DNA from: Baffinella frigidus
Lineage: Eukaryota; Cryptophyceae; Cryptomonadales; Baffinellaceae
Direction: 5' to 3'
Assembly: GCA_026770585.1 (NCBI GenBank)
Contig: MU646409.1
Location: 323,010-350,256, forward strand
DNA length: 27,247 nt
Both the position numbers and the translations under genes were made by a program. Positions 6,901 to 27,233 of the stretch are shown here, one piece after another. The notes under the pieces are model-generated. The model saw only the letters and a program-made list of their open reading frames with translations. It did not search any database and was not told the DNA's origin. The first letter of the stretch is position 1. The number at the start of each line of letters is the position of its first letter.

Positions 6901-8833
6901 ACGGACGTACACAAAGCTTCCCGGGGAATTGACGTCCAGGCTCGTCATATTGACGAGACTTAACCGTGTGAGGCAGAAATCGACATCCGATCCTCTGCAA
7001 GATGACCAAGAGGAGCGTGGCTGGTCTCAGGAAGACTCCCACGACACTTGACCACTCAGGCTTCCAGTTACAACGGCTGCCCAGATCAGGTATCGTCCGG
7101 GTACACACCTGCCGAGTTTAGTCAACATTCGCGGGACGCTCGCCTGTCTGCCGGGCGTGCTTTCACCCACGTGCACAACCAACGGCAGTCCCACGACCTC
7201 CGTTTTCTGGTACTAATTCCTCCTGGGTGGGGCAGCGTCCTGCTCGAAAAGCTGCATGGGTCGTTCACGAGCAAGGTGCCAATGCGGGAGAGGGTGCGTA
7301 CCAGGAGCGCGCGCACGCATTCCTCCGCCGAACTCCAAGTCGCAAATAATCAAGGCCGTCTCACACTCTCAATGCAATTAAGACAGTAGGGGCCAATACG
7401 GGGGAGGGTGTGCACCAGGGGGGCGGCAGGGGGGTGGTGAAGACGGGGGCGGGTATGCACCAAGGGGGCGCCAGGTGCCGCGTGTTCGACGCCTTCGAGG
7501 GTGCGCACCAGAAGCACCACCTGCTTCCGCCGAGGCATCAATGCCAGGTGTGGTGTTGGCTACCGCGCAAGAGATCAATGCCAGGTACGCCATGCACGCC
7601 ACTGCCGTGGTCGGAAAATGCATCAAAACCCAAAGGCTAGCGACCAACGGATGGAGCTTGCAGCTAGGCAATGCACGAATTACACAGGTCTAGCTGGGCA
7701 ACGCACGAACTCCGAAAGTCTAGCAAGGGTTCAAACTCAGCACACATGTCAAGCTGGCATAGACACGCCAGATGCATCCATCGCCATCCAGACAGAGCAG
7801 CGGCGAACAGACAGTGTCAACGTTTGACAGGAGGGCATGGGGGGACCGCGGTGCCGGGGACGCCATTGAGCTGGAAGCGAGTCTGGTCCACGCTCTGGTT
7901 CGCGCACTCCTTCCCGTTGATTGACATGATTGTGTCGCCCACTCGCACCTGGAAACGGCTCGATTTGTGAAAAGTGCATGTTTGAACAAAGTTGTGAAAA
8001 AAACGCAAGAGTGCGAGAGCCATGTGGGTGTGTTTGGAGAGGTTTGAGAGCGAACTCGCAGTGCATTCGTTGACACGCCTCCTCGCAACGAGCACGCCGC
8101 TGGCAGCAACGCCAACCAAATCCCCAAGGCCAAATGCCTTTCCCCAGAGTTCAAACAAGTACATTCAAGATTTGAGACCCGGAGCGGTCTATCGAGTTCC
8201 TGGGTAAATTTCCCGACTTTGTACAACGGGGGTATCCCGAGGAGGGCGACATCCAAAGATTAAGTCAACTGGCAACGTTTGAAGTTGGGCGGGGAGGGCA
8301 CCTGGCCGCTGCGCGCTGCCGCGCCGTCCTGCGCGAGCTGCACGATCTGCACACCATCCGGGACTATGTGGAAGTAGATCCCAACCTGTTCCCCACCCGT
8401 TGCACGTCAGGGTGCTGAGCCGACGATTGGAAGCGTGCATAAAAGTGGATTGCCGGGCAGGGTGGAGAGGTGATCAGGTCGATGGGCAGAGCCGACCATA
8501 GCCGGACAGGGTAGGTCGTTGCAGGTCGGTGGTCAGAGCCGACCGTAGGCATACAGGGTGCAAGGCCAGCCGGAGTGCACCACTTTGCAACGCAACAACC
8601 GTCCACCATTCCGAGTGCGTCCTAGCTAGTCTTCCTACGCAGTTGAAGTTGACGACCACAGGGGTGAGGGCAACCTTGCCAGTTGAAGACGGGGGTGGAG
8701 CACGTCCATCCGGGAACTGCGGTGGTGGCACCCACCCCCTTCCCTCCGCGTATTTGGGAGAGGGTGCTGGCGGCTGCGATTGTTCGCCGAAGACTCCCAG
8801 CAGCGAGTGGGCCAGCACCTCCGATCCGTACAA
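2561..8833 (-). CDS. PDZ - coiled coil - C2 domain protein (split gene, ends unresolved)
   Basis: Minus-strand exon model in reading order: 8833-8675, 8385-8302, 7948-7847, 6493-6440, 6066-6007, 5489-5415, 5075-5022, 4515-4365, 3920-3850, 3377-3330, (2940-2905 tentative) and 2758-2561. All junctions used are phase 0 except 4365/3920, which is phase 1 on both sides. The protein would carry a PDZ domain near its N-terminus, then Pro/Gln-rich and coiled-coil segments, then a C2-like fold. PDZ domains bind C-terminal peptides and C2 domains usually bind membranes or partners, so a membrane-linked scaffold is a fair inference; I do not recognise the specific family. A possible first exon is ATG 9205 to 9185 (seven codons, donor GTTCGT). 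The 3' end lies below 2561 and was not found. The PDZ and C2 parts could be two genes, but no stop separates them in the model. Confidence 0.6.
4263..4335 (-). pseudogene. Diverged, in-frame copy of the coiled-coil/proline exon
   Basis: About 73 bp resembling the 4384-4484 part of the neighbouring exon: RQHLASPCDTSTRTPLAPPA against QQHLRPFVEPSTRAPVAPPA, in the same frame. It keeps a good acceptor (ACCTTCCCCAG, phase 0 entry) and a weak donor (A|GTCCAC, phase 1 exit). It could be an alternative extra exon if the preceding exon ends at 4384 (CTA|GTGGTT, phase 0), or a decaying tandem duplicate within the intron. Confidence 0.5.
4365..6493 (-). CDS. Linker and coiled-coil exons of the PDZ/C2 gene
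   Basis: Five short exons, all linking in phase 0 on entry: 6493-6440 (TVVLVRVQDLQE); 6066-6007 (MGRDVDAPTRQSYRALIAQE, perfect GTGAGC donor); 5489-5415 (Pro/Gln/Ala-rich, EEQQPQRAPAPEQPAASP..., ending FRQ); 5075-5022 (DEKAARLHQLEE); and 4515-4365 (ENNRLRQLVQQQHLRP, then Pro-rich, ending in hydrophobic HMLVVDGLR). The last two give heptad-like leucines typical of a short coiled coil. Exon 5489-5415 ends CAG|GCAAGT, a GC-type donor. The exit of 4515-4365 uses GGG|GTAGGT in phase 1, and its end could form the first strand of the C2 fold. Confidence 0.55.
6515..6576. repeat. Three tandem copies of GAGTGTAAAGCG at a 3' splice region
   Basis: On the plus strand CTGAGTGTAAAGCGCAACGATC is followed by two further GAGTGTAAAGCG copies with about 20 base spacing. 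On the minus strand this is CGCTTTACACTC three times, the last ending TTTACACTCAG about 20 bases before the CAG|GAC acceptor of the exon at 6493. It looks like a multiplied 3' splice/branch-region segment. Confidence 0.7.
7278..7520. repeat. Degenerate tandem repeat GGGAGGGTGYRCACCAGGGGGCG
   Basis: Four loosely spaced copies of a GCCAATRCGGGAGAGGGTGYGYACCAGG-like unit occur near 7276, 7391, 7445 and 7495. They lie in the 1.35 kb intron (minus strand) between exons 7847 and 6493. No coding sense was seen in this intron. Confidence 0.55.
7847..8385 (-). CDS. PDZ domain, two exons (8385-8302 and 7948-7847)
   Basis: Exon 8385-8302 gives VGIYFHIVPDGVQIV followed by DGAAARSGQ; exon 7948-7847 continues VRVGDTIMSINGKE and ends LNGVPGTA. 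This is the PDZ order: a GI-x-F carboxylate-loop-like start, a V-x-x-L...DGxAxxSG strand-helix segment, then VGDxIxxINGxxC and G-x-PGT. Acceptors are GAACAG and TTCCAG, donors CAG|GTGCCC and GCG|GTCCCC, both phase 0. The usual GLGF loop seems to be VGIYF here. The next exon in phase (6493-6440, DVSMMKTVVLVRVQDLQE) may supply the last strand. Confidence 0.8.
8455..8565. repeat. Tandem duplication GGTCRGTGGKCAGAGCCGACC
   Basis: Two related segments of about 50 bp, both containing CAGAGCCGACC, then a TAG(G/C)C element, then ACAGGGT, at about 8474-8515 and 8523-8560. They lie in the minus-strand intron between exons 8675 and 8385. Confidence 0.6.
8675..8833 (-). CDS. N-terminal exon of the PDZ/C2 gene
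   Basis: Fifty-three codons in phase 0, acceptor TCTTCAG at 8834 and up, donor AAG|GTTGCC at 8675. It begins LYGSEVLAHSLLGVFGEQ and continues Pro/Gln/Gly-rich (PPAPSP, WVPPPQFPDG, APPPSSTGK). No domain is recognised; it looks like a disordered linker before the PDZ domain. The seven-codon candidate first exon at 9205-9185 would join it in phase 0, but that start is weakly supported. Confidence 0.5.
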
Positions 8834-9994: not shown

Positions 9995-10674
9995 ATGGCC
10001 GGGCGTCACGGAGCCGTCTATCGAATGCTGCCGTGGCTTCTTCTTCCGCTGCTCCTCGCCCAGCTGGCGGCTTCCGTCGAGGCTCCCCGAGAGACTAAAA
10101 ACCTCTCTTATATGCGGCGGGTCGTTGAAAACGCGCTCCGCCCGCGCGACTCGACAAATGACGAGTGGCACGTGGTCAGCCTCCCCCCCCACTCACACGT
10201 CCTTCCGGCTCACTTTCAACCAGATTCTGATGGAAAATGCAAAATTGCGCCTCAATCATATTGTACCGCCGGGGGTGCTTCCTGTGGTTGGAAAAAATCA
10301 GCATGCCGATGGGTAGTCTGACGATCCATGCCCGTGAGTGCAACACAATTGGTGGAGTACGTGTGCTCTTGGTTTGTGGGAGGAGAGGTCCGATGTGTCT
10401 GCCTCATTTTGAGGGGTTTGTTGGCTCTGGGCCGCTGGAAACCATTGCACTCGCTCCTCAAACTGCGATGGGGTCTGGCAGGTTTGGCACGCAGACCTTC
10501 TGCTTCATGTTGCTGGGTTCGGCTCCGAGGAGGAGGCCATCGCTCTGGAGAAGGCTCTCGGGGACCTCCCTGTTCAGGTGTGTCTCAAGAGGGGAGGTTG
10601 TGTTGGTGGTAGAGCTCTGAGGGTACAGGGCATAGCAAGTGGTCAAATATGACCGCGACGAGCCAGAGGGCAAG
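9995..10674 (+). CDS. N-terminal exons with signal peptide
   Basis: ATG 9995 opens [20 protein letters not shown], followed by [10 protein letters not shown]: a basic start, a leucine-rich core and a small-residue AAS/VEA cleavage region, a good signal peptide for ER entry. A sequon NLS follows (residues about 36-38). The first exon ends near 10171 or 10174 (both phase 0). Exon 10482-10577 gives [20 protein letters not shown] and ends LPVQ. Exon 10636-10674 gives [13 protein letters not shown] before a GTGAGC donor. This part resembles no family I know; there is no cysteine-rich LDLa module of the glucosidase II beta N-terminus. The order of exons 2 and 3 is less sure than the rest. Confidence 0.6.
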
Positions 10675-13600
10675 GTGAGCCGAGATGTAGTTCGCTGGAA
10701 AGAGGCTCCCCGCGACTCCCTCATGGTGCTGGGGGTTGGGACGAGCGACTACAATGATTTGGTATACTTGGAATAATCGCGCCGTGTGTGTGTTGGGATT
10801 GGCAGAGCAACTCGTCCCACGAACTCCAAATACACTGCACACCAACACTCATGCCGCTAGCTCGAACGCATCAACCCACCCACGGGACAGCATCGCATTC
10901 CTCGACCGACGTTCCCAGTAAGCTGATTGCTGCCTCCCGGTCACCTCCCGGGGTCCTCTCCACCCGCAACCTCCGCGCAACCTCCGCGCACCAGCAACCC
11001 GCCAACCCCCCCTCCCTCCACCCAGGTGCTCCACCACTTCACAGAGGTGCGGCGGTCCGCGGCACCCCCGGGCGGCAGAAGCGTGTGGCCGCCAGACTGG
11101 CCGACGCAGTGGCCCGCCGGCCAGCGCCTCGAGGCTCTTCCGTCCTGGAAACACCTGGAGCTGGTGCTCACGGCCGCGACGCGCCGGGGCGCCGAGCCCG
11201 CCTCGGGACCCGGTTCGGGGGCAGCGCAGCCGCAGAGAGCGGATCAGCCGCGCGCGGAGGGGGTGGCGGGGGCGCAGCAGCAACAGGGGACCCACAGGTT
11301 GCCCCGCTCACTCAGCAATTCGGCCTCGTGCCTCTAAGCACATGCAGTTAGGGGTAGGCATGCTTTTCGCATGGGTTCAGAGCGTTGCGACGCCTCCGAG
11401 TTTATTCAGGGTAGTTTCCAAGGTGGACACTTGCTGCATCAGTGAGGCAGAGGAACATGCGAGGAAGAAGCCAATCCTGTGTTGGCAGGACGAGAAACAT
11501 GCGTGCGACACTCCTAGCCCGCAATACACGGGACGCAGTCCTATCAACCCTAGGGACTTCCGCAGCAAACGCTATCCCCTAAATTGTTGGGGTTTCCTGA
11601 CTTGTCGCGCGATGGGTTCACAGCAAGGAGACGATCGAGGCGAAGCGGGCAGAGCGAGAGGCGGTGGTGCAGGCCGCCCGCAAGCGCGCCGCCCAGGACG
11701 CGCTTCATCGTGAGCGAGAGCGAGAGCGCCAGGCCCGGGGGGAGGAGCACGCGCGGGACACGCCGCCGGATGCGAGTGCGGGCAGGGTTGACGCGGCTCT
11801 TGGGCAGCCGGCGGCGGAAGGGGGGGAGGGGGGGGCGCAGGCGGGGCAGGCGGGGCGAGAGGAGCATCGGCGGATGCGGGCGCGGGCGCGGGCGCAGGAA
11901 CTGGCAAGGGCGATGTCACTTGCGAGGAGTGAGGCGCGCGGAGATGGGCAGGCGCGTGTGCGGGATGGGGAGGGTGCCGCTGCTGGGGGGGGGGAGGCTG
12001 CGGAGCGGGCACGGCGGGAGGATGAGGAGCTGCGGAGAGATGAAGAGTTGATGCAGGTTTGTTACCGCAGGGTTCCGCCTGGATGTCTTGCTCCCCCCCC
12101 CTTACGGATTAGATTGCTCGTGTTTTAAATTGTTACCACGCCACTGTCTGACGAGGGGTGAGAAAGGATCCAGAGCTGAACCTTTGCGACACTAGGGTAG
12201 GAGGTTTACGTCAGCAGTTCCGACACACCAGCTGCCGGGTCGTCTCCGTGGGAGCCCTGAAACCGCCCGTAGGCCAATACCGTATGCTGACTGTCCTGGC
12301 TGCGCAATGTTGGCCTCGAGCCGCATGCTGCATACCAGCCTACAGTTCTCGCGGATTGTTTTTACAAATCGGCGATAACACGACGAAAGGCGTGGATTGC
12401 TTCCACCAGTTTGGCAGCTCTGTCCGGTAAACCGGTCAATGTTGCATCTGTGCAGGCGGCTGAGCAGCGGAGAGAGGAGGAGGCAGCCAGAGCAGCCAAG
12501 GAAGGCGCAGAGGCGCCGTTTGCGGGGGGGGCAGAAGCTTCTTCGGCCGCGCAGACCAAGGGGGCGTCGGATCATGGGGCGGGGGGTGTCGAGGGGGGTG
12601 AGTTGATTCAGGGGGCGCGGGTGGTGGTGGAGGAAGCTGCGAAACAGCGCGATAGAGAGGAGGCCCTCCGATCCGGGTCTGTCCTCTGTCCTCACACCTT
12701 AAACACATGTTTCAACACCACTCTTGACTCACCAGAGCGTTCCCAGGTGCTTCGACCGGATTAGTTTATTTCCCGGTGGAATACTTGTCCGGCTCAGTTA
12801 GCACTTGGTGGACTCTCTTCTGTTTCCTTGACGCGCAAGTATACACCCTAGAATGGGGCGCCACTGCTCAATTTTCCGGTCCACTCGTGAAGGGTCAATC
12901 TGAAATCTCCTTGAATACAGCAAAGTTGGTGTACGGTATTGGACTGCGGTCGGCCTTAAACGGCACCTCCACTCAAGAATGCTCAAGGATCCTAATGATA
13001 TGTGGGGTTGTAAAATTTGTAGCAGGATAGGGTGTTCCAACCTCTGTGCAACATATGTAGAGGTACGTGACCAATCAAGGAACGTTGCTACACAAATGCC
13101 CACGTTTAAAAACACATGGGTTTTGAATAGGCCCCTCTAGCGTTCTCGTGTTGCTAGGACCGATGAGCGTTACTAATTGATTGAGGGTTGCGGTACAGTC
13201 GAGTCGCTGTAGAACAAACAGTTCAGAGATGTCCTCATGCTTGGGGTTTGGCGACCTGCAGGGTACAACCTTGCGTGGCGGTTGACTCATCCATCGTTCG
13301 CAGAGCCAGTTGACCAATCTGTCGTTCGCAGCTCGAGCGCCTCGTTCGCAGACGCAGTTGACTGAATCCTTGGTTCGCAGATCGGTGGAAGCGGAGCTAG
13401 ATCAGCAGAAGGCGCGTGTCGAGGAGGAGGTGCGCCGTCGGGAGGAAGACAAGCGTGTCCAGCACATGGTGCCCCCCCCCACCCCTCCCTCCTCCCCCCA
13501 ACTGTGATTTCCTGAATTAATTCCCCCAGTGCACGTGCCTGGTCCGGAGTTCCCGTCCCAGAGTCGGAGTTCCCGCCCTACCCACACCCCTGCTGCACGT

Positions 13601-14654
13601 GTTGCCCCTACACCTGCTGCACGCTGTCCACGTTTCGAGAATGTTTTCCAGCGGGGTTATTTGCGTTGCGGACACGCGAGCGTCCGTCCGTGTCAGATGA
13701 GTGGATGGCTCATTGTTGTGCCCTACGCGGAGGATTGATGTTTATGCGTTGTGTGTGCAGGCGAAGTTGAGGGGAGATCTGGACCGGCACGTGCAGGACC
13801 AGCAGCAAAAACGCCAGGAGGAGAAAGACCTTGCCGAGTCCGAAGAGCGGGTGCCGGCATCTCCCGTACTTGGCACCGTTTGGCATTTTTTCCTGCGCGT
13901 GGCAGTCTCGAATCGTTCGTGGTGAATCATTGGAACTTGTTTGTGACTAACGGATGCATCTCACATTCCGTGCGAGGCTCCGATGGGGCCCTCAGAGGTG
14001 GGTGGTTGTAGGGGGCGGAGCAACGTCATACAGAGACAGCGACATAGAGACAGTGGTAGAGAAGAAAAGACTGCGACAGAGAATACAGACAGCAGGGAAG
14101 GAGGTCTGCTGAGGTGTAGTTTCACACTGTGTTTGGACCCTACCGTATTCGCTCGTGATACGTTGAACCAGTTTCCCAGTGGCGTGTCACCCGGTGGTGT
14201 GGCTCATGATTTCCTGCTCTGTCTCCATCTCTCTCTCTCTCTCAGACACACGCGCTCTCTCTCCCCACAACACACACACTCGCTCTGTCTCTCTATCAGA
14301 CACACAGCCACACATTATATCTATTTCTCTCTCTCTATCACACACACGCACACACACACCATTTCTATCTCTATCACACACACACACACACACACACTAT
14401 ATATATATCTCTCCCACACATTCTCTCTCTCTCGCTCGCTCGCTCGCTCGCTCGCTCGCTCTCTCTCTCTCGCTCTCTCACACACACACACTCCATCTCT
14501 CACACAATCTCACCGCGTCGACACAGGAGCGGATAGAAGAAGAACGAACGTTGAAGGAGGTGGACCGCCGTGCTGACCAGGTCCTTCTCCCACTGAGATA
14601 CACAGAAAGAGAGGCATAGCGAGAGAGACACCTGAAAGAGAGAGAGAGCGAGAG

Positions 14655-14695
<41 letters not shown>

Positions 14696-16694
14696 CGTGC
14701 TGGTCAGGTCTTCCTCCCAGTGAGACAGAGAGAGAGTGCATTGCTTTGATACGTTCTGCACTTTCGACTTTTGTCTGCGGGGCGTTTCAACGCGCAAAGT
14801 GTGCTGAGTTGCTGGGTGGGGTGTGGCGTGCAGGAGATGCTCTGGGAGAAGGAGAAGCACGCGAAGCGCCTTCGCGAGGTACCGCACACACTTCAGACAC
14901 CTACCCCGCTGTCGGTTGCCTGTGCAAAACCCTCTGCATGATTGTACCACGGAATGGTACCGCACAGACTCCAGACACCTACACCGCTCACGCTTAGCGA
15001 AATTTTGGTATGAGATTGGCCAGAGGCCGTGGGATGAATGTGGGGGGGGGTTCTCGTGAAGTGATACTCACACGGCAGAGGGAACTAGTCCCGTGCTGAT
15101 TTGGTAGTCTCTTCTGGGAGAGAGTCTCTGCCGCCCATGCTCCTCCTGAATTGATGATTCACCAATTCAGGAGCCGTGCTCGCGAGGAGCGAGGACGCCG
15201 CCCAGTACCAAATTAAAGAAAAGGCTCCAATTCCAGTTCAAAAGTGGTCTCTGTATCCTTTTGAGTTCGCGAGGAGCACGGCCTCGTAGCGCGGCACCAT
15301 GAACCCTGAACCCGAGGCCGCGACTCGGCAGGTTGAGGCAGACAAACAGGAGGAGCGAGACGCTGCCGACTCCCTCTCTGTCGAGATGACGCGCAGGTTG
15401 CGAGCCCTCCAGGCAACATTGTACGCCGGTTGCCTGTGTCACGCTTCTCTGCTTCTCTGCATTCCTGGGTTTGGGTGCCGCTCTGGTACACACCCTGCAT
15501 GGGTGTGGTGTGCTCTGCGAACAGTTCCCGATGTCCAATGGGGCCCTGCACGTTTCACAACTTGATGAACGCGTTCTTGACCTGTGCTTGCAACGGAGAC
15601 TCTCATACGGGAGAGTCTCGAAACGTGCCTGGCGCAGCGTCACCAGGCGCTCGGGGGAGTCTCCAGGTTACACGTTGTTTGTAACCCAGTGAGATCTATC
15701 AGATAATAAACGAACCTTTCGAAGTGTGTAGTCTTAAAACTTGACGCCCTGGCAGGGCGATGGAGCTGCAGGAGCATCTGCGGGGCATCAAGGAGAAACA
15801 AGGCCTCACGGATGATGCGCCGCAGCCTCCTCCGGTGGAGAGCGAAACACCCCCCGGAGATGCGGCAGGCACTGCACACGAGGATGGTGGCGGCGTTGAG
15901 GCATCTGTTGCTGGGGCAGCGGATGGAGGGGGAGCCGCAGAGACGAAGGCGGGGGGGGGGGCGGAGGCGCCCGTGGGCCACGCGGCCACGGAGACAGACT
16001 CAGCCACAGCCACAGCCGCGGCCACGGATACGAAATTGGGCACGGAGCAAGGCACGGCAATGAGCGCGGTGGGGGGGGGGCGCAACCCTGGGTCGGCGCT
16101 GACGAACGCCATCGGGAACCGGATCGCGTTGCTGCGAGGGGTGTGTCTGACGCTCGAGGAGGGGTTCTGGTCGTATGAAGTGTGCGTGGGGGGCAACGCC
16201 ACGCAGTTTCGCCGCGCGGTGCGATCCTACACCCTAAACCCTAAACCCTCAACCCTAAACCCTAAACCCTAAACCCTAAACCATGAACCCTGAACACTAG
16301 ATCGTAAACCCTAAACCTCAAACCCCAAACCCCAAACCCTACACTCTCAACCCTAAACCCTAAAACTCAAACCCTAAACACTCAACCCTAAACCCTAAAC
16401 CCTAACCCCTGAACCCTAAACCCTAAACCCGAAACCCTGAACCCTACATCCCAAATCCCAACCCCCAAACCCCCTAAATCAGGTGCGCGCAGGGCCCTGG
16501 GAGGGGAGGCACGGCGAGGTGCGCGAGATGAGCCACCTGCTGGGAGTCCAGGTGCCTCAACCATCAACCCTACACACTCAATCCGAATGGTTACACGCCT
16601 CGGCCCAGTGTACCTCGCAGCGCCGTGGTTGGTGGCCGTGCAACCGCTCGTTCGGGGCCAGGCGGAAGAGAGAGCAAGAGAGAGAGAGAGATAG

Positions 16695-16735
<41 letters not shown>

Positions 16736-19700
16736 CGGGCAATGGCGCGCGGCATACCATTGAGCGCCGCATGCCAAGCATGATAGAACACGGACGCGCC
16801 CACCACGTCTCAACGCTGCACACGCTGCATGCATTTCCGGGAAGGAGGGAAGGAGGTGTGGAGCGCGGGAAGAGAGTGTCGGGTGCCGCGAAGTCAGAGC
16901 GGGTCATGTCAGTATACACCACAGATGAACACACCACACCTCAACGTCTGGTGTGACACAACACGGATGAACACACCACACCACAACGTTCCACACACCA
17001 CATGCGTTTCCTGCAAAGTGGAGTGGAGCGTGAACGGAGAATGGTGGTGGCAGGAGTCGGAGAAAGTGATGCAGGGTCAGGAAGGCAGCCTTGGGCTGAA
17101 GATGTCGCTCCGCGGCGGGAGCGAGTGCCCGGAGACAGGCCCGCGCGCCTCTGAGGTCTTGCCTGCCATTTTTCTTTCTCTGTCCTTCCCTCTTGCTCAA
17201 GAAACGTGAAGTCGCAACTATGATGATGCGTGGGCCAGAAGTCTATCGCCCGGTTGAGGCATGTCGGTTCAAGCGGAGCCACATGACAACTGAAAAGTCC
17301 AAGTCAACATGCACGAAGTTGGACCGGCCGAGATATCCAACGTCACTCTGTGAGAAAGAAATCCCGGCGATGTGTTTCACCTTGAGAGACGGAAGGAGAT
17401 GTCTTGCGTGTTGAGACGGTGCGCACTGGATGGTGCTGTCTTTGTTGTTGGCGCTCGTCGCCCGATGCCTCCCCGGGAGTCTTCTCCGTTACTAGTCTCA
17501 AGCCTCTTAAAGTGTGCCTGGTGGCGTTCATCACGGTGTCGAAAGCTGACGTCCTGTGGACACGCTTGGGAAACCCGTATGGGATAGCCGGAGTGACTCG
17601 ACCATAGTCACGTCCAATAGAAGGAGACTTAATGTGCACGTGCCGATTCCCTCCGCTCTTTCAGTGAAGTCTCTCAACTCGCACACGCGTGGCTGAGCAG
17701 GTGTATGTGGTGTGTCTGATGACAGACGCGGGCCGCGACGCGCCGAGCCGCCTCGAGAGAGTGTCTGAGCCATCCCCGTGCCACTACAGCTTCACGGTCC
17801 CGCCCGCCCCACTCTAATAAATCATCACTTGTCCTTGTCATTATTCCTAACACATGTTTGGTAATATTTGTTATTAAACTTGAAACCAAGCATTGCGAGA
17901 GGAAGCCACGAACGTTTGTTGGAACACCCCGCCATGGCCCATAAAACCCCCAGAGATGTCATGCCTGATGCTCTTCTGCCCGGCGTCAAGTCCCTGGGTG
18001 AGGACCACACTCGTGCCAGCATGGACACAACCGCCCCTCACTTTAAGTCACGGTGAGTCGCTTCATTGAGTCACAGTGAGTCACTTCGTTGAGTCACTGT
18101 GAGTCACTTCATTCGAGTCACAGTGAGTCACTTGGTTGAGTCACGTGAAGGCACTGCATCGAGTGACGGATGTCCCTCGCGGCGACGCAGGTGCTCTCAC
18201 CGCTGATCTGCGCCGAAACAGAGGAAATCGTGTTCCACTCGCGGCGTGCGTTCGCGGGGCGACAAGAGCTTCCGCTCATCGATGCTGCCCCTCACGATTT
18301 CTCCATCCCGAGTGCTCCGTCGCCAGGTCGCCCGCAGCACCCATCCACGCTTCCAAAGTGTTTCACTGATAGGCCTCATAACCTTAGATATGTGCGTGCC
18401 GTTAGAGCGCAGATAAGATCATATGTACCTAGCCACGCTGCACTCTTGACGAAACCGTGCAAAAGCGTCAGGCAGCATGCCGTCCTATGCGAGCCATCAA
18501 CATCACCCCCCCACACACACTGAGACACACAGCCGCCACACCCGCATGGCACGCCCGCAACACCAGGCATTCAATATCAACGCTGCTTCCCCCCGTGGTG
18601 TGCCTGGGACGCCGGCATAGAGGGCAGCTAGAATGCATTTGCCCGAGTGTTGGTAAACATGACACTCTCTCTCTGGCAGGGATGTTCGGGGCGGGGCCAG
18701 GAGCGCTGCTCGGCCTCAACTGGGTCAGTGCGGGGGTATACCCCAGACCTTGGACCCTGAACCCGAACCATAAACCCTAAACCCTAAACCCTTGACCCTG
18801 ACCCCTATGTCTTGACCCATAACCTTTACACCCTGAAACGTAAACGCTATACTCTGAACCCTAAACATTAAACCCTGAACCCTGAACCCTCAACCCCAAA
18901 ACCTAAATGCTAAACCCTGAATCCTAAGCCCTCAACTCGTAACCCCTCACAACTAACCCCTAACCCCTAACCCCCAACCCCCAATCCCCAACCCCTAACC
19001 CCTAACCCCTAACCCCTAACCCCTAACCCCTAACCCCTCACCCCTTACCCCTGACCCCTAACCCCTAACCCCTCACCCCTCACCCATAAACCCCTTACCC
19101 ATAAACCCTGACCCCTGAACCTCAAACCCTAAACATTGATCGATTGCCCCTTACCCCTGAGCCCTGAACCCTAACGCGCTGACCCGAAACGGTAGGGGGC
19201 GGTGCCGCGGATGGACCTGGGGGACGCGGAGTTCGACATGGCTTTCACTGAGGTCCAACAACACCCCTTTTCTCTAGTGCGAACCACCAATGTTTTCGAG
19301 TGCACACCACCGATTTTCTCGAGCGCTTATCGCTCATGGGGCTTTTACTATTGTGTGCTAGTCGATCGAGATGGCTTTCTCGAAGGTCTTCCTGCGCTGT
19401 TCGCTCTGGGGGGCACTCAGCGGACGACGGGATTTCTTGAATAACCCATTACTGGATAATCCATAGACCCTCCGGTAGGCAATACCATAGGGGGATAGGT
19501 GGGATCCTGCGGACAGATTGGTGTGTGTGCGGAAGCATAACAGAGTTGATATGCGACGCGGTGCTCCTACCCGGCCGGACCCACCATCCAATGCTTTTAG
19601 AAATGGGTGGAGTGAAGTGAGCAAGGTAAGAGAAGGATACCGCCTGATCACGACATCCCTCGCACTTGTTGCGACCGTAGACTCTGTTGGCTTGGTGGTG

Positions 19701-22700
19701 TGCGATACTATGTTGGGTTGGTGTTGTGTGATGGTGTGTGATGTGCTCTGTGAAACCCGGGCAAAGAGCCCCGAAAACATCCCGCGTGATCCCAAGCCCG
19801 TCCACTCACCACGTCCCCTCTCCCCTCAATCCCCGCCCTGGAGAGATTGGTAATATATTGCCGAACAACCAGTGCCAGCACCATCCCTTGAGCGCCGGAA
19901 CTGAGTTCCGGACCCGCTGCCCCAACGCATTTTGCTACTTACTGTGCCCCGCCCTACACGCATCCTTGCCCCCCCTGGTGCACGCGATTCAAGTGACGCC
20001 CCCCCCCCCTGACCAGACGATCATGCACCACCCGATGGCACTGGGGAGGAGGATGGGGGTGCGAACACGACACTGTTTCTCGATGGACACTTCGTGCACT
20101 TTCGACATGTGGCTCTGGCTTCGCGCGCCTGACCCGTTCGCCCAGGTCCTCTTTCTTCTCATCCTGCTTCCTTTTTCTCTGCTGCGTCTTTTTTTCTTTT
20201 CTTTTTCTTCTGTTTCGTCTTCTTCTGCTGCTTCTTCTTTTCTTTTCTTTTCTGCTCCGGCGTCTTTTTTCTTCTTCTTCTTCCTCTTCTTCTTTTTTTC
20301 CTTTATTACTCTCGATACAGGTTCTAGCAGCGTCTTAAGCCTAGAGTTGAGTGATGCAAACGTCTATGAGCATCATTACGAGCCCAGGTCCGCGCCCGTT
20401 GCCGTTCATCATTTCCGCGCGGGTTCTTGCTGGGGACACAGTCCCGTATATGATACCCGGAGTGACTTTACACGACCACGTTCACTGTCTCCATAGATGC
20501 GCCAGATTATTGGTCAAGTGCCCGGTATTATACCACAATGACCGCCATGAATTCCGCAAACGATACACCCTACAAAGCAGCCATCCAGGCCTGAGACCGC
20601 AGGTCGCAGGTCGAGGAAGTCTGTGTGTGTACATGTATTCGTGTTCGTACCTCATTCTCTTTCCAACCAGAGTGTGCCCGAGTCCGGAAATGGCCAGCCA
20701 CGCCTCGGTGTGGACCAAAAGTTGACGAAGTTGCACCGCATAAGTTTATGGATGTGAAGAAGCGACGTTTTTTGATGGACGGGTTTCCCGGCAGGGCCCC
20801 GAGAGCGCGATCGTGACTGTGAAAGAGGGCACGCACGCGGTGGGGCCGCACCTCCTGTGGTCGATGCCCCAGTCGCCCGGGCACGTCTTCTGCGGACTGC
20901 ACTCCTTTGTCGAGAACCAGATGGTCGGCGCCTTCTCTGCACAGGTTCTGAGCCCTGCCCATAGCACAATCTATTCTGCCCCCCGCGTATAACCTATACA
21001 TACATATAATATGTTTTGCCCCCCGCTCTTAACATGTACGAGTCTCCTCGCGAGCAAGGACACACGCCCTAGGGCCCTAGGGTCGTACCATAGGCATGTT
21101 CCTAGGAGCCAAGGACACCCCTGGAGACCGCGTGTGGCCTCGTGCAAACAGAGAGAGGGCTAGTTGATTGACGAACCCCACACCCGGATCCGTGAGGGCA
21201 CTGCTCCCGACCAGGACACCATACTCTGATGCTCGTTGGGTGGCGCACCGGATGGTGGTATGTGAAGGCGAGCAGCAGATGACCCGCACGGCAGTTGTAT
21301 CTTATATTTTTCTCCATCTCTTTCTATCTCTCGCTCTCTCGCGCTCTCCCTCTCTCTATAGTTCTCTCTCTCGATCGGGCCCTTCGCCTCGGGAGGTGTG
21401 AACCTCCTACGCGTGTTCAGCTCTCAAGAACCTCTCGCGCGCGCGAGAGAGAGGCACTCGAGAGCCCATGGCCCGTGAGGCCTCACGAGAGGCTTGCATA
21501 GTGCGAACCCTGCTGCGGTCAGGCATCGAGCTTCCTCACAATCCGCGCGGTTCAGTTACCCATTGTTTGCGGATGGGGCGCGGTGCAGTTACCTCTTGTG
21601 TGAGGACTGGGGTATTGTTTGTGGGTGGACATGTGATGGGGCGTAACGGATGTGCGTGGTTCGACAGGCGCTGGGGCTGGAGCGGTGGCACCACGTGGCG
21701 CTCGTCTTTCATCGCAAGTCGCGCTTGGAGGTACCTCCACCTGCCTCTCTCGCTTCATGTACTACTGTACTACTGTGGTTGTGCCCCTAGAGGTGTTCCC
21801 CTGCTGTCTTCCACTGCAGCGTTCGACTGTGCATCGCCAGCCAAGCTACCGTCTCGTCCAGAGAGAGAGAGAGAGATGCATAGAGAGGGGGGGCTTTGGG
21901 ATCACTCATTCCCAGGCGTGTGTGATGAAGAGAAGGAAAAAGGTACGACGATGGCACGAGCGCAGGTGACAGTAGCTGGCACGTGCGCTTGTCACTCAGC
22001 TGTCACGTGCGCTCCCTGGCCTGTTCGAGACAGGATCTGCCATGTCCTTTTTCCAGTCCACCCCTCTGCCTAGTTGCTACGTGGGGGGGAAAGGTTGACG
22101 GTATTTCGTGTGGCAGGTGTACTTCCACGGGGGGCGCAGCAAGTTGCGCACGTGCGCTGGTTACTCAGCTGTCACGTGCGCTCCCTTACCTGCCTGAGAC
22201 ATGCTCTGGCACGTGCGCAGGTGTACTTCAACGGGGCGCAGCAAGTTGTCATCGCGACGCCGACAGACGGGACCCTCCTGCCCATCTCGCGGGAACTCCG
22301 ACAGAACTTCATGATCGGAGGTTATGAGCCTCTATTTGGGAACAGCCCCGCGCCCCATCCACACCTGTTGTGCGCAGGAGGTTTTGAGTCTCGTTTTTTC
22401 TTGAGGTTGCGAGCCTCCCTGTATGTGCAGCCTCGGCGGGGACCTCCTGGAATTGAAGGGAGGTCGCGTCCGGCGTTGGACTGGGGTAGACCTACCTCGC
22501 GCGAGGGGCCTCTCTAGGTAGGGCCTCGTTGCCTGTCGAGCCGTGTCACGATGCCTGCTCTCTTCACAGATTCTTGACATTGCAGCACCTTAATCTGAGC
22601 GAATGTGTTGTTTCAAGGGTTTCTGCCAACGAAATGAACTACGCAATGGGGTCATACTGCAAACAGTAAAACATGTGTGTAGTAAGTTTTGTTGACAGGA

Positions 22701-22948
22701 AAGGCTTTGATGAAAACCTTCTCTCATCGATGAAGGTGGTGTGCAGGGTCCGCGCAGTACCACATCTCGGCGCCGGCGATCGTGGCTCAGGCCAGAATGC
22801 ATCACCACCAGGTGCCCACGCCTTCTCATCCATAATATGTTTCCGTTGATCAAAAGTTGCCGTGTGTCATACGTTGCCGTTTATCAGACGTTGCGACACA
22901 GCCAGGGGCCTAACATAACCTGTCTTCCCACATGTGTCTCGACTTTGA

Positions 22949-23041
<93 letters not shown>

Positions 23042-25208
23042 CAGAAGTTTCCGCAGCAATCGTTGTCCCGGTGGCAGACGCGTGCCCCGCCGAATATACG
23101 ACCCGTGAGGCGGGGGTGGCTGTACAACGAACATCGACGGTCAACGAACACCCATGTCTGTGCAACGAACATTAACTTGGATGGATGCAGGCACTGGACG
23201 TGGCGGAAATCCGGGAAATCGCGCGGTCTCCCCCAAAGTTCACGCCGCCGCCCGAACCCAAGAGGACCTCTTCTCCCGGGGTGACCACCCCCGCCCCTGT
23301 CCGGCATGAGCCCCGGCTAGCCCAACACAAGCTCCAAACTGTGCATTTTGAGCGTGTGCGGTATTTCCTGACAATCGCGCGCCAGCGGCATGATCCTCCT
23401 CCGCGCCCGGGGCACAGAGGGTCATCTATCTCTCTCCATCTCTCCATCCCCCTCGTCCTCGCTCTCGACCTCTCCCTCTCCCTCGCTCCCTCGCTCCCTC
23501 TCTCCCTCTTCCGCTATCTCTCCCTTTCTCTCCCTCTCCGCGCCCACCCCTCCTCTGCCGCCACCTCTATCTCTATCGCAGCGGCGACACCCCCCCTCTG
23601 AACCCTGATCACCACACCCCCCGGCCTTGACCACAGGGGGGCATGCTGGCCAAGATCCTGCTGAATGGTCAAACAATTGGACAAGGGTACCGCATCGAGG
23701 AGGCCATCGCCAAGGCCATGGCCGCCGCCGGCGAGGCGCCCGCGGCCGTGGAGGCGCCCGGGGCACTGGCGGTCGCGTCGCCGGCGGAGGGCGCCGTGCC
23801 TGTGGAGGGCGCGGCGCCGGAGGCGGCGGCGACTGAGGGGGCGGCGGGGGGGGCGACGGATACAGGAGTCGCTGTAGCCCCGGGTGCGGCAGAAGGTGCT
23901 GCGGAGGTTGCACCGACAGCACCGGCAGAGGCGGTGGGGGAGGCGGAGGTGGTTGCGGCGGCGGTGGCGGGGAAAGGGGGGGACCCGTCGCGAGGGTTGC
24001 CCATCCGCGGGGTCACGCTGCCGCCTCGACACGAGGCCGGGTGCGCCATCTTTCCCCGCCCAAGCGCTTGTTTTTTTCGGGGGGGGGGGGGGGGGGGGGG
24101 CTGCTCGGTGGGGAGGGGGTTGGTTGGGAGAGGCGATTGCCTTGTTCGGTTGGCGTGCCTCGCGGCGGGGTTGTGCGTGTATTGGCGCGCGTGAACCGCC
24201 CCGAGGTCCCGAGGCGGGCCTGTCTGAGGCTCCGTCCTTGGGTGGGCCTGACGCACGTGCGGCGGTTGCAGGTACCTGCACCACTTGGAGGAGTTCCTCG
24301 GCGGCAAGGATCATGCCCTCCTCGGCATGGCCCATCGAGCCCGCCTCGGAATCGGAGAGGTCCTCCCAAATCCTCAAGCCCCAAGTTTTGCACCTCAAGC
24401 TCTACCCGTCCAGCGTGGCGTCTGCGCATCCCCCATCCGTAACAGCATCGCCCGCCCACTTCGAGCAACATCACACCCACCATCCTTCGACATCTCACGC
24501 TGCGCGGGCGGGGCGCAGTTAAGGGTGTAGGGTTTGGGTTTCAGGGTTCAGGGAATTTGGGGCGTGTAATGTAAACCGCGCGACGTGTGACGCCGAATGC
24601 GACATCTGACGCGGCAAGTGGGACGCAGTTTGCCGAACCGCGGTGCGAAGTGGCGGCGGCCTACTACCGGGCAGCGGCTGACATTGCTCTCAAAGCCGTC
24701 GAGAACAGCGAGGCCTCTGCCGTCGAGTTTGTGCGCCTATCCGACGAGGTCCGACCCTTCACCCTAGACCCTAGACCCCAAAGGGTTGTCGGTTGTGGGT
24801 TCAGCCTTCAGCCTTCAGCCTTGAGGGTAGTGCGGTCCAGCTATCGGCATAGGTGGTCAAGGTGCGTGACTCTGCGGGGTGGCGTGACGTATTGGGGGTG
24901 GCGGGGTGCAGGTGGAGAAAGTGGAGGCGTTCACGGGGCAGAGAGGGGAGGACGATGCTCTCGTCAAGTATCAACAGAACCTTGCGGAAGCTGGCGATGC
25001 CCCCGCACAGGTCCATCCCTCCACTTCACTCAACTTTCCTCAACTTGTCATATACCCCCCTCCGGTCCCTCGCTCCCCCCGGATCAACTCACCTGCTTGC
25101 CAGATTCTCCTGAGCAACCAAGTCACGGTGCGCGCCCCACCCCCCTCGGTGGTTGCATTGTTCAAGTCGAAACCACCGCACGGTGTCATCACCTCTCTGG
25201 CAAGAGAG

Positions 25209-25244
<36 letters not shown>

Positions 25245-25428
25245 GTGACGCGTGAGTAATCAAGGCGCGGGATCCCCCAGGGGCGCGAAAGGCGTGCCTG
25301 AGGCAGAGAGAGAGAGCAAGAGAGAGAGAGAGAGAGCGACAAAGGGAGAGAGCGGGGGAGAGAGAGATCGAGAAAGAGCAAGAGAGAGCGAGAGAGAGAG
25401 AGAGCGAGTGAGAAAGAGAGCGAGCGAT

Positions 25429-25483
<55 letters not shown>

Positions 25484-27233
25484 AAGAAAGAAAGAGAGAG
25501 AGACAGCGCGCGAGAGATGGTTACCGACACTCGGACTCGGACAAACGCATGAAGGCTGGCCTCTGGTGGCAGGCGTGGCTGGGGCACAGATACTACTGGG
25601 GCGCCGGGGGGCTTCCTCGAGATCGCGCAAGAGCCCTGCAACTCCTCGGACGCGCCGCGGAGGCAGGTTGCGAGCCTCTCCCCGCCTCGACTCTCTACTC
25701 GCAAGCCTCAAGATGAGTGATCCAACAGTCAATTTGCCTTGAAGCGAGCGGGTGTGAGTAACGGCATGACCCGTGCAGGGAACGTGGAGGCGCAGTACAA
25801 CCTGGGGGTGATGCACGCATACGGACACGGCGTTGAACGCAACCGTGAGGAGGGAGTCCGCCTGTTCCGCGCGGCGGCTGACCAAGGCTATGTTGCTGCG
25901 CACAACGGTCCGCCCCCCCCAGGCCAAGAGCCACCGAGACGCCAACAACTTCACCATTTGAAACATCTCTACCTCAACTCATGCCCAGATTCTGGCCATG
26001 GACTTTTCAAAGAAATCGTACCCGCTCTCAAGCGGGTATGGTGTTGCACACATAGCCGGGGGTCCGCCCCCTCACCCGAAACAGGTCACGACGGACCATG
26101 ACAAAGAAAATAAGTTGGCGAGACTTGCTGGGCTGCGTCCCGAGGCGGGCCTAGCTGCCTGAGGGGCATAGACTTGCTGGGCTGCGTCCCGAGGCGGGCC
26201 TAGCTGCCTGAGGGGCTGCCGCAAGGGAAGAAACCCTAAACCAGAAAGGCGAAACCCGAAACCCGCGGACCAGGGCTGGCGCTGGCGCTGACTGACGGTG
26301 CCTCGGACAACAACTTCACCGAAGCATTCATCCACTTCAATCGGTCTGTCCCCCCCACCGCCCTATTTTGAAAAGTGGCCTTGTTGATTTTTGGCGCCAC
26401 ACGCTGCGCGCGGCCAAATCCGTACCCGCCCTGCGTCCTCAAGGGGTGGACGGGCCCGCCTCGGGACCTGACGGGCCCGCCTGATGAGAGCCCTGGCGAG
26501 TTCGTGTCTATTTTCAAGGGCGATCGTGTCGGGTGATATTTTCTCGCTTCTTCTAAAGAACGGCGCGGATCGCACAGGTCGGCGCAGTCAGGCAACGCAG
26601 ACGGGCTTTACAATGCGGCCCTCCTGCTCCGTGACGGCCGAGGTGTGCCTTCTCTCGGCTAGAACTTTCTTCTCCGTCTGCTTCTTCTCTATTACTCTCG
26701 ACACACGTCCTTGTCAGGCCATGAAGCCTTGAGTTCAGAGATCTAAAAGTCTACAATCCTGCCGTGATGGTGTGGCGGTCTTCAGTCTGCAATCCCGCAC
26801 CCTGCTGCTCCTTACGCGGCCGGTGCGGATCTTTTTGTGTGGTGGAAGAGAGCGGCGTCGAGTGATGCCGACCGCGGAACGCTCAATGGCAGAACATTGC
26901 GCCCGCAAATACCTGCGGTGTGGCAACGAACATTACTACACAGATGTATTACTATTACGTGCACGGACCAATTGTGTAGTATTTGTTTGGTGCCAGTTGC
27001 TAGAAACGGTTTTCAAGTTGAATACTCGACGGAATTACATCCCGCGAGTGGTTCGGTGGCTGCCAGATCTGACGACCCGGATCTCACGGCCTGGTTTCGG
27101 AGCACTGATTCTGTGACATGTGATACGCAACAAGCGGGGCGGGTCGCAACCCCTCATCCCTCATCGCTCAACACAGGGGTGGAGAAGGACGAGGTGGTGG
27201 CGCTCGCGTACCTCCGCCGCGCGGTCAGCCCCT
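9995..27233 (+). CDS. SEL1L: Signal peptide - coiled coil - MRH lectin - LamG - SEL1L/Hrd3 fusion protein, 3' partial
   Basis: A 33-exon model, at least about 1,400 residues. Exons: 9995-10174, 10482-10577, 10636-10674, 11026-11297, 11624-12056, 12456-12676, 13381-13468, 13761-13850, 14527-14580, 14834-14878, 15332-15420, 15756-16218, 16483-16551, 17054-17155, 17701-17796, 18191-18326, 18680-18723, 19196-19252, 20017-20145, 20795-20923, 21668-21730, 22221-22320, 22747-22811, 23191-23280, 23637-24040, 24272-24359, 24629-24748, 24912-25010, 25573-25666, 25779-25907, 26274-26343, 26578-26642, 27177-27233 (donor GCG|GTCAGC; continues outside). Every junction agrees in phase, including the non-zero ones (phase 2 at 11297, 12676, 15420, 24040, 26343; phase 1 at 18326, 22320, 25666, 25907, 26642). 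The product should enter the ER lumen and act in ERAD as substrate receptor and HRD1 partner. MRH lectins and SEL1L are separate, interacting proteins in animals and yeast. Least certain are the first three exons, the acceptor at 17054 and the donor at 23280. Confidence 0.75.
11026..15420 (+). CDS. Charged coiled-coil region on eight exons
   Basis: Exons 11026-11297, 11624-12056, 12456-12676, 13381-13468, 13761-13850, 14527-14580, 14834-14878 and 15332-15420. After a mixed segment ([20 protein letters not shown], then Gln/Ala-rich) the chain is Glu/Arg/Ala-rich: [120 protein letters not shown]. This is long coiled coil or single alpha-helix (residues about 195-535), split by a gap of small residues. 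Placement before an MRH domain recalls glucosidase II beta, where a Glu-rich coil precedes MRH; OS-9 has MRH near its N-terminus. Junctions of phase 2 (CACAG|GTTG to CACAG|CAAG, and TCCGG|GTCT to CGCAG|ATCG) restore sensible codons. Confidence 0.75.
14222..14515 (+). repeat. CT/CA compound microsatellite upstream of a 54 bp exon
   Basis: Blocks of TCTC, ACACAC, CGCT and ATAT run to within 12 bases of the acceptor of exon 14527-14580. Sense strand is pyrimidine-rich. Its open frames are repeat artefacts. Confidence 0.92.
14635..14692. repeat. (GA)n microsatellite
   Basis: Purine-only GA run shortly after exon 14527-14580. On its right is GCCGTGCTGGTCAGGTCTTCCTCCCAGTGAGA, a near copy of the exon end and donor at 14567-14600 (GCCGTGCTGACCAGGTCCTTCTCCCACTGAGA). 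Confidence 0.9.
15756..18326 (+). CDS. MRH lectin domain (OS-9/Yos9 or glucosidase-II-beta type)
   Basis: Exon 15756-16218 starts [16 protein letters not shown], passes an Ala/Gly/Thr-rich linker and ends in the MRH start [16 protein letters not shown], then GGNATQFRR. Exon 16483-16551 gives [13 protein letters not shown]; 17054-17155 gives [16 protein letters not shown]; 17701-17796 gives VYVVC, then [12 protein letters not shown]; 18191-18326 gives [12 protein letters not shown]. Six cysteines are present in MRH order. The mannose-contact set is also visible: Gln in ATQFR, Arg in GPRASE, Glu in VSEP, Tyr in CHY. MRH domains of this group read trimmed mannose glycans on misfolded glycoproteins. 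OS-9 has a double Trp (GWW); here it is GFW. The loop before GGSEC is short, as in glucosidase II beta. NAT is a potential glycosylation sequon. The acceptor at 17054 could instead be 17075 or 17081, all in phase. Confidence 0.82.
16219..16482 (+). repeat. CCCTAAA array filling an intron of the MRH domain
   Basis: The intron between exons 15756-16218 and 16483-16551 is nearly all CCCTAAA, CCCTCAA and CCCTGAA units, C-rich on the sense strand, ending CCCCCTAAATCAG|GTG. The repeat itself must supply the branch point and the pyrimidine-rich tract. Confidence 0.9.
16676..16737. repeat. (GA)n-(GATA)n microsatellite
   Basis: AGAGAGAGAGAGA, then GATA units, then GA again, in the intron between exons 16483-16551 and 17054-17155. 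Confidence 0.95.
17797..17821 (+). terminator. In-frame intronic stop with AATAAA: possible short MRH isoform end
   Basis: If the donor at 17796 is not used, the frame runs VPPAPL and stops at TAA 17815-17817 (a second TAA follows). AATAAA at 17816-17821 overlaps the stop, and the next 65 bases are unusually AT-rich. This could be an alternative 3' end, though a signal overlapping the stop leaves hardly any 3' UTR, and such a product would lack the sixth MRH cysteine. Confidence 0.35.
18043..18145. repeat. Tandem GAGTCACNGTGAGTCACTTC repeat
   Basis: About four units of TTGAGTCACAGTGAGTCACTTC with small changes lie in the intron ending at 18190. Each unit holds two GTGAGTCA/TTGAGTCA cores and includes GTGAGT, a strong donor-like hexamer. 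Confidence 0.85.
18680..23280 (+). CDS. LamG / concanavalin-like jelly-roll domain
   Basis: Exons 18680-18723 ([14 protein letters not shown]), 19196-19252 ([17 protein letters not shown]), 20017-20145 ([19 protein letters not shown] at the end), 20795-20923 ([27 protein letters not shown]), 21668-21730 ([18 protein letters not shown]), 22221-22320 ([24 protein letters not shown]), 22747-22811 ([20 protein letters not shown]) and 23191-23280 ([17 protein letters not shown]). The order FT-x-D-x-W-x-W-x-R, W-H-H-V-A-L-V, V-Y-x-N-G, I-G-G-S and R-x-x-x-A-L-x-x-x-E-I is that of LamG/pentraxin-type folds, which often bind glycans or proteins. Junctions 18326/18680 and 22320/22747 are phase 1 on both sides and the others phase 0. 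It sits between MRH and Sel1 repeats, where animal or yeast SEL1L/Hrd3 has no such fold that I know of. Confidence 0.77.
18757..19190 (+). repeat. CCCTAAA/CCCCTAA array in an intron of the LamG region
   Basis: CCCTAAA-type units change at about 18950 to a purer CCCCTAA array (about 19 near-identical units to 19085), then decay again. C-rich strand is the sense strand. It ends about 20 bp before the acceptor CGGTAG|GGG at 19195. Confidence 0.92.
20157..20316 (+). repeat. TTC/TTTTC polypyrimidine tract
   Basis: About 160 bp of almost pure pyrimidine (TTCTTC, TTTTC) in the intron after exon 20017-20145, ending ATTACTCTCGATACAG. An exon starting there would read VLAAS and stop at once (TAA 20335-20337), so I do not call one. 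The tail resembles 26685-26735. Confidence 0.85.
21303..21375 (+). repeat. CT-rich microsatellite
   Basis: CTCTTTCTATCTCTCGCTCTCTCGCGCTCTC repeats in the intron before exon 21668-21730. Confidence 0.9.
21978..22250 (+). repeat. Duplicated intron end plus broken exon start
   Basis: A block with CACGTGCGCTNGTNACTCAGCTGTCACGTGCGCTCCCT occurs at about 21979-22016 and 22151-22190. Before the second block, at 22116-22150, stands CAG|GTGTACTTCCACGG..., a near copy of the true exon start at 22221 (CAG|GTGTACTTCAACGG). The earlier copy has two extra G bases, so it is frame-shifted against the exon. Confidence 0.8.
22951..23040. repeat. (TA)n-(TG)n microsatellite
   Basis: Thirty-nine TA units followed by six TG units, in the intron between exons 22747-22811 and 23191-23280. 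Confidence 0.97.
23410..23560 (+). repeat. CT-rich pyrimidine tract before the SEL1L exons
   Basis: CTCTCCATCTCTCC/CCCTCGCT/TCTCCCTC repeats fill the intron upstream of acceptor CCACAG at 23636 and could serve as an extended polypyrimidine tract. Confidence 0.85.
23637..27233 (+). CDS. SEL1L: SEL1L/Hrd3-like Sel1 repeat region, 3' partial
   Basis: Exon 23637-24040 opens [20 protein letters not shown], then an Ala/Glu/Pro/Gly-rich low-complexity segment. Then Sel1 repeats follow: 24272-24359 ([16 protein letters not shown]); 24629-24748 ([20 protein letters not shown], ending EFVRLSDE); 24912-25010 ([26 protein letters not shown]); 25573-25666 ([20 protein letters not shown]); 25779-25907 ([36 protein letters not shown]); 26274-26343 ([12 protein letters not shown]); 26578-26642 ([20 protein letters not shown]); 27177-27233 ([15 protein letters not shown]). 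The Cys-x-x-A-x-x-YY-x-x-x-A-D segment followed by V-x-x-V/F-x-R-L-x-DE-V-E is specific to SEL1L/Hrd3 rather than generic Sel1 proteins. In the ER lumen SEL1L/Hrd3 stabilises HRD1 and presents ERAD substrates. NFT is a possible glycosylation sequon. The C-terminal repeats and any membrane anchor lie beyond the window. Confidence 0.88.
24079..24100. repeat. 22-base G homopolymer
   Basis: An unbroken G run follows T7-C about 38 bases after the donor at 24040. It could form a G-quadruplex in the pre-mRNA and is a likely sequencing trouble spot. Confidence 0.95.
24360..24628 (+). other. Intron with a short TTTAGGG-like segment in opposite orientation
   Basis: Contains GGGTGTAGGGTTTGGGTTTCAGGGTTCAGGG at about 24523-24553, the G-rich strand of the telomere-like repeat on the sense strand, the reverse of the three large arrays. 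No exon was seen. Confidence 0.6.
25209..25506. repeat. GA-rich microsatellites
   Basis: Two GA/GAA tracts (about 25209-25243 and 25303-25506) in the intron between exons 24912-25010 and 25573-25666. Sense strand is purine-rich, so not a polypyrimidine tract. Confidence 0.95.
26121..26216. repeat. Perfect 49 bp tandem duplication carrying GAGGCGGGCC
   Basis: Two 47-base identical copies (AGACTTGCTGGGCTGCGTCC...GCCTGAGGGGC) start at 26121 and 26170. Each contains TCCCGAGGCGGGCC, the motif also found at 1611-2215 and 24200-24215. The identity implies recent duplication. It lies in the intron before exon 26274-26343. Confidence 0.93.
26643..27176 (+). other. Intron, no exon recognised
   Basis: The intron between the last two visible Sel1 exons (534 bp). 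It includes a segment at 26685-26735 resembling 20304-20352 (TATTACTCTCGAYACA...AAGCCT.GAGTT.AG). No other structure was seen. Confidence 0.55.

Follow-up and report, generated by a model that had tools for sequence, protein, structure and literature searches.

A single nuclear gene of the cryptophyte Baffinella frigidus very probably encodes, in one chain, an MRH lectin, a LamG domain and a SEL1L/Hrd3 scaffold, making up a putative type I ER membrane glycan receptor and HRD1 adaptor. The locus lies on contig C107 (323010-350256), and this whole stretch of 27,247 nucleotides is referred to here as the window. Yeast, plants and animals make the lectin and the scaffold as two separate proteins. 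As judged from its sequence, the Baffinella protein most likely serves HRD1-type ERAD as glycan receptor and adaptor in a single chain. The domain order, its continuity in relatives, the conserved binding residues and the hydrophobic ends can be read directly from the sequences compared. An initial annotation of the window had proposed a fusion of two known ERAD partners; both partners indeed stand in one chain, in the same MRH-LamG-Sel1 order, in three sequences from relatives: an ORF derived from an MMETSP transcript (P0010), a EukProt protein of the cryptophyte Hanusia phi (P0011) and a predicted protein from ENA (P0002).

The gene model was assembled manually with reading frames, splice sites and relatives as guides, all Baffinella evidence being genomic DNA. 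It comprises 33 exons on the plus strand, from 9995 to 27224, which join into 1450 amino acids without a stop, with GT-AG borders at all 32 introns. The encoded protein starts with an N-terminal region, followed by one that resembles a coiled coil, a complete MRH domain, LamG and Sel1 repeats of the SEL1L/Hrd3 type. The initial annotation had stated that the exons from MRH to Sel1 agree in phase with no stop between them, and this holds in the model, including the phase-1 pairs 18326/18680 and 22320/22747 and the phase-2 pair 24040/24272. Its start of the gene at 15756 had to be moved: the model begins about 5.8 kb upstream with a signal-peptide-like exon at 9995, and its 3' end runs off the window, the gene being incomplete here. 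Three exons are new to the model, at 15332-15396, 17054-17155 and 20017-20145.

Exon 1 (9995-10174) carries the start codon and is called signal-peptide-like on hydropathy only, its peak spanning residues 11-29. The N-terminal region continues through exons 2 (10482-10577) and 3 (10636-10761), both in phase 0/0 and separated by an intron of only 58 bases, into exon 4 (11026-11297). No Pfam match was found in the first 189 residues. Exon 4 has a WP.DWP..W motif in common with P0010 (WPSDWPVSWV) and P0011 (WPPDWPTMWP), with 20/57 and 28/78 identities over the exon, respectively, and this shared motif makes it probable that the N-terminal region and the MRH-LamG-Sel1 part are encoded by one gene. 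A charged coiled-coil-like region starts in exon 5 (11624-12056) and extends in the gene model over exons 6 (12456-12676), 7 (13381-13468), 8 (13761-13850), 9 (14527-14580) and 10 (14834-14878). The added exon 11 (15332-15396), outside the coordinates first proposed, puts exon 12 in phase.

The MRH domain begins, after a linker, in exon 12 (15756-16218), as placed by the profile match and the gene model, and continues in exons 13 (16483-16551), 14 (17054-17155, with the conserved Arg) and 15 (17701-17796, with the conserved Glu and Tyr in the alignment). Exon 16 (18191-18326) ends the domain with its last Cys, enters the following linker and closes in phase 1. In the hand-spliced pieces lacking exon 14, Pfam PRKCSH scored 5.8e-6 (27.5 bits, cut-off 27); with that exon the match lengthened to cover the whole profile (1-74/74) at 27.4 bits, less than one bit above the cut-off. 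The four MRH exons after 16218 are less similar to P0010 (8/34 to 7/17 identical) than the downstream exons, which from 20017 to the window end range from 7/28 to 21/22 identical, the Ala-rich exon 23637-24040 left out. All four aligned sequences (window, P0010, P0011 and P0002) keep six Cys as well as Q34, R86, E110 and Y116. These positions line up with OS-9, and we take the latter four residues to be the mannose contacts. OS-9, XTP3-B (ERLEC1) and Yos9 thus share with the fusion a full MRH domain, its six Cys, the conserved Q/R/E/Y and a W-containing motif, but are separate proteins, whereas here one MRH lies N-terminal to LamG and Sel1 in P0010, P0011 and P0002 as well.

Compared with solved structures, the window MRH best matched endoplasmic reticulum lectin 1 (XTP3-B, 2.4e-7). 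The second match was the GlcNAc-phosphotransferase gamma subunit, a non-ERAD MRH protein (6.6e-6), above OS-9 (4.5e-5); weaker still were a chain described as ER quality-control lectin (1.3e-4) and the yeast-type OS-9 homolog 6vk3_B (0.0014). With P0010, both XTP3-B and OS-9 rank above the gamma subunit. In these comparisons the MRH part is closest to XTP3-B. Glucosidase II beta also has an MRH domain and, to our knowledge, no Sel1 or LamG; its own MRH profile, PF13015, matched the window protein weakly (0.0041, below the cut-off).

The stretch between MRH and LamG is the weakest of the model. Linker exons 17 (18680-18723, placed by phase and splice sites only) and 18 (19196-19252) are weakly supported, with 0-3 identities to any of four relatives. 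LamG starts in exon 19 (20017-20145, 19/43 identical to P0010) and runs through exons 20 (20795-20944, 24/50), 21 (21668-21730), 22 (22221-22320, ending in phase 1) and 23 (22747-22811) to exon 24 (23191-23280), where it passes into a linker. In the hand-spliced pieces Laminin_G_3 scored 2.1e-5 (25.2 bits), below its cut-off of 27.6. The same holds for P0001, P0002, P0003, P0009 and P0011, so that one of the seven LamG-bearing proteins scanned, P0010, exceeds the cut-off (4.7e-7). The predicted MRH-LamG-Sel1 order was thus recovered from the spliced protein, Sel1 giving 6.3e-23 by Pfam in the same hand-spliced pieces.

The weak linker is one of the points that could suggest two adjacent head-to-tail genes, one for an MRH lectin and one for a LamG-Sel1 protein, wrongly joined here, with the relatives being mis-joined predictions. 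The NCBI protein T484DRAFT_1940011 (P0001), the best protein match to the window, likewise spans the downstream half only, and P0003, which starts shortly before LamG, is also without MRH. Yet the start of P0001 at 21650 lies 18 bases before exon 21, inside an intron of the model, in the middle of LamG and without a signal peptide, and for these reasons we consider this public Baffinella gene model probably truncated. As it is without MRH and without part of LamG, the fusion is absent from the public annotation of Baffinella. Moreover, no stop separates the domains in our model, and the relatives argue against two genes: the transcript-derived P0010 has all three domains, P0011 of Hanusia phi has them in the same order, and MRH and LamG stand in one predicted protein in both P0002 and P0009 (also from ENA). 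We therefore regard a wrong joining as very unlikely.

Relatives were scored, in each search, among about 8000 candidate proteins sharing most words with the query, so that a fusion in another lineage could have gone unnoticed. The MRH-to-Sel1 query returned 33 proteins, five of which (P0001, P0010, P0011, P0002 and P0003) were far ahead at 2.9e-211 to 8.9e-133, the others scoring 4.2e-55 and weaker. Pfam detected both MRH and Sel1 in three of these five (P0010, P0011 and P0002), and relatives with the same MRH-LamG-Sel1 order reach E 3e-171. P0010, whose ORF start falls inside the N-terminal region, carries PRKCSH (1.4e-9), LamG and Sel1 (8.7e-49) in one chain, and P0002 carries all three domains in one predicted protein. 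From residue 553 onwards, before Sel1, P0002 has a Ser-Leu run that resembles an in-frame read-through of a CT-repeat intron. P0009 is near-identical to P0002 up to that residue and then continues in a different frame; whether the frame is preserved seems to depend on how long the CT-repeat intron is. The order is known from two cryptophyte genera, Baffinella and Hanusia, in addition to the MMETSP and ENA datasets and, on these sequences, amounts to a fusion, specific to this lineage, between two ERAD partners already known.

The scaffold part follows an Ala-rich linker, exon 25 (23637-24040), which ends in phase 2 and is present in P0001. The SEL1L-like region starts in exon 26 (24272-24359) and includes a SEL1L-type block (...VEFVRLSDE) in exon 27 (24629-24748). 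Similarity to P0010 is high over exon 28 (24912-25010, Sel1 region, 22/33 identical) and the Sel1 repeats of exons 29 (25573-25666, 25/31), 30 (25779-25907, 37/43), 31 (26274-26343, 18/23) and 32 (26578-26642, 21/22); exon 33 (27177-27224) is 8/16 identical, and the remainder lies beyond the window. P0001 continues past the window with further Sel1 repeats and a C-terminal hydrophobic helix. By hydropathy this helix peaks at 2.66 in P0001 and at 1.86 in P0011, and is less clear in P0010. On contig C107, N occupies at least 19 kb from 350257, straight after the window; P0001 nevertheless continues.

The solved structure best matching P0010 is SEL1L (7.4e-53 over residues 579-996), the next-best other Sel1 protein scoring 1e-43. 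Because of this match and the SEL1L blocks that P0010 has in common, the Sel1 part is, by sequence, SEL1L-like rather than generic. The same single chain also matches Hrd3 (5e-11), XTP3-B (1.4e-16) and OS-9 (2.8e-10), partners that the PDB keeps as separate chains: SEL1L with XTP3-B in 8kes, SEL1L with OS-9 in 9og0, and Hrd3 with an OS-9 homolog in 6vk3. SEL1L and Hrd3 resemble the fusion in their Sel1 solenoid with SEL1L-type blocks and, as judged by hydropathy in P0001 and P0011, in the C-terminal hydrophobic helix, but they bind a separate MRH lectin, whereas the fusion carries its own lectin and has LamG ahead of the repeats.

LamG itself had been presented in the initial annotation as an added second lectin-like module. 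The module is present, but animal SEL1L3 has a LamG ahead of its Sel1 repeats. The combination of LamG and Sel1 is thus probably not new, and the MRH fusion is the novel part of the architecture; we know of no MRH domain in SEL1L3. The resemblance also raises the main rival to our interpretation, namely that the protein belongs with SEL1L3, carries an MRH in addition, and regulates or competes with SEL1L-HRD1 instead of receiving substrates. LamG, Sel1 repeats and C-terminal helix are together the SEL1L3 layout as we know it, but P0010 matches SEL1L itself at the value given above (SEL1L3 not being among the solved chains compared), and no other SEL1L-type locus that could be the regular adaptor was detected in a weak search of an incomplete assembly. 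We judge this alternative unlikely, though distinctly less so than a wrong joining of two genes. According to PMC13280011, the SEL1L family has in common C-terminal Sel1 repeats and one transmembrane domain and differs in the N termini, and human SEL1L3 interferes with ERAD and binds both HRD1 and SEL1L, which would fit a regulator. SEL1L3 has Sel1 repeats and a C-terminal transmembrane domain (PMC13280011), a likeness of layout to the fusion.

AlphaFold models had low mean pLDDT, 39.3 for P0002 (4 sequences) and 49.3 for P0010 (6 sequences). Confidence was mainly confined to the Sel1 part, plus a long helix near the P0010 N terminus; neither MRH nor LamG was confidently folded in either model, and therefore the calls of these two domains rest on sequence profiles. 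In a Foldseek search with the P0010 model the top two matches were SEL1L chains. The best 50 were SEL1L, Hrd3 and other Sel1, TPR-type or similar repeat proteins with low whole-model TM-scores, and by description no MRH or LamG chain was among them.

We infer glycan binding, HRD1 binding and ER location for the fusion along the following lines. It would enter the ER via its signal peptide and be anchored in the membrane by its C-terminal helix. Through its MRH domain it would recognise trimmed N-glycans with terminal alpha-1,6-mannose on misfolded glycoproteins, and through the Sel1 solenoid in the same chain it would grip the unfolded segment nearby and attach to HRD1; LamG may bind glycan or protein, or serve as a spacer. 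One chain would then supply lectin and adaptor at 1:1, with no assembly from two proteins. For yeast, PMC9478403 describes a luminal site proposed to be built jointly by Hrd3 and Yos9: the Yos9 MRH binds a terminal alpha-1,6-mannose, and the unfolded segment next to it occupies a groove of Hrd3. The fusion would present such a site within a single chain, at 1:1. Arabidopsis plants that have lost the Hrd3 homolog are reported to contain less of the OS9 homolog (PMC12940902), so that the two amounts are coupled there by stability, whereas in the fusion the covalent link would couple them.

Alternatively, the protein might work not in ER quality control but in protein import into the cryptophyte plastid, whose ERAD-like machinery derives from the symbiont. 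Cryptophyte plastid import follows a transit-peptide Phe rule, and by inspection no transit-peptide-like Phe comes after the signal-peptide-like start; a mannose lectin would also suit the ER lumen better. We consider this reading the most improbable of all, although Guillardia theta does have nucleomorph-encoded parts of such machinery (PMC5756292). That paper names both Guillardia and Hrd3, but speaks of Hrd3 with regard to yeasts.

For the ER receptor that we favour, a stronger version is that cryptophytes have replaced OS-9/Yos9 and SEL1L/Hrd3 by one 1:1 chain with a lectin-like LamG, leaving no stand-alone ERAD MRH lectin; we give this an even chance. The assembly searched is 382 Mb and incomplete, and the published Baffinella sp. 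CCMP2293 assembly is described as 535 Mbp with BUSCO 72.3% (PMC9756366). A search with the MRH profile that admitted E values as high as 10 gave two places, the fusion locus and C82:887326 (0.049, below the cut-off). Two exons at the latter match PRKCSH_1 at 7.9e-4 (over the cut-off) and 0.053 (under), and by sequence C82:887326-888375 looks like a separate glucosidase II beta-like gene. Finding it indicates that the MRH search has some sensitivity, near its limit. At that sensitivity no stand-alone OS-9 was detected in the incomplete 382 Mb assembly, nor, with P0001 and P0025 (a SEL1L-like protein without MRH or LamG) as queries, a second SEL1L-specific block. Separate OS-9 and SEL1L orthologues, which the initial annotation had counted, together with lack of expression of this locus, as evidence against a fusion, thus did not appear, but both absences are weak. 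The assembly is incomplete, and with P0025 even the fusion locus came up only at E 0.96, so that another SEL1L gene rich in introns could have escaped detection.

Three other Sel1 loci (C679, C66 and C269) were set aside as a second SEL1L, with 28-40% identity and matches beginning after the SEL1L-specific block: the block spans residues 282-316 of P0001 and 211-249 of P0025, and matches start from 330 and 262, respectively. The C679 locus (16004-18281, minus strand) encodes a large Sel1-repeat protein (Sel1 2.3e-45) without a match to the SEL1L-specific block; its frame has only Sel1 repeats and an overlapping TPR_27 profile. Its C-terminal part looked Nop16-like by eye but gave no such match in Pfam.

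Full-text searches covering few subscription papers returned no paper naming both a cryptophyte and SEL1L and, judged by title and abstract start among the matches listed, none on an MRH-SEL1L fusion or a cryptophyte Hrd3/SEL1L. The main text of the Baffinella genome paper (PMC9756366) contains none of the terms sel1, lectin and erad. With the fusion, cryptophytes gain a candidate ERAD receptor. In yeast and animals the joint action of lectin and adaptor must be worked out from complexes, and a natural fusion would provide independent evolutionary evidence that the two act as a unit with fixed stoichiometry, as well as a single polypeptide for studying glycan and segment recognition together. 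If the replacement has indeed taken place, gene fusion would tie glycan recognition to recognition of the unfolded segment at a fixed 1:1.

Other features were seen in the window. Degenerate telomere-like arrays of CCCTAAA/CCCTCAA/CCCTGAA occupy 1-760, 16240-16480 and 18750-19190, and two of the three fall within introns of the modelled gene. A PDZ match (PF00595, 2.9e-8) was obtained from hand-joined pieces on the minus strand (8299-8394 and 7820-7951), which are probably a separate gene upstream on the opposite strand. On the plus strand, 761-832 encodes a partial C3HC4 RING finger (VPCGHMALCRDCAPHIGKSLSSCP; PF13920 8.9e-6, slightly below the cut-off), possibly an exon of another gene.
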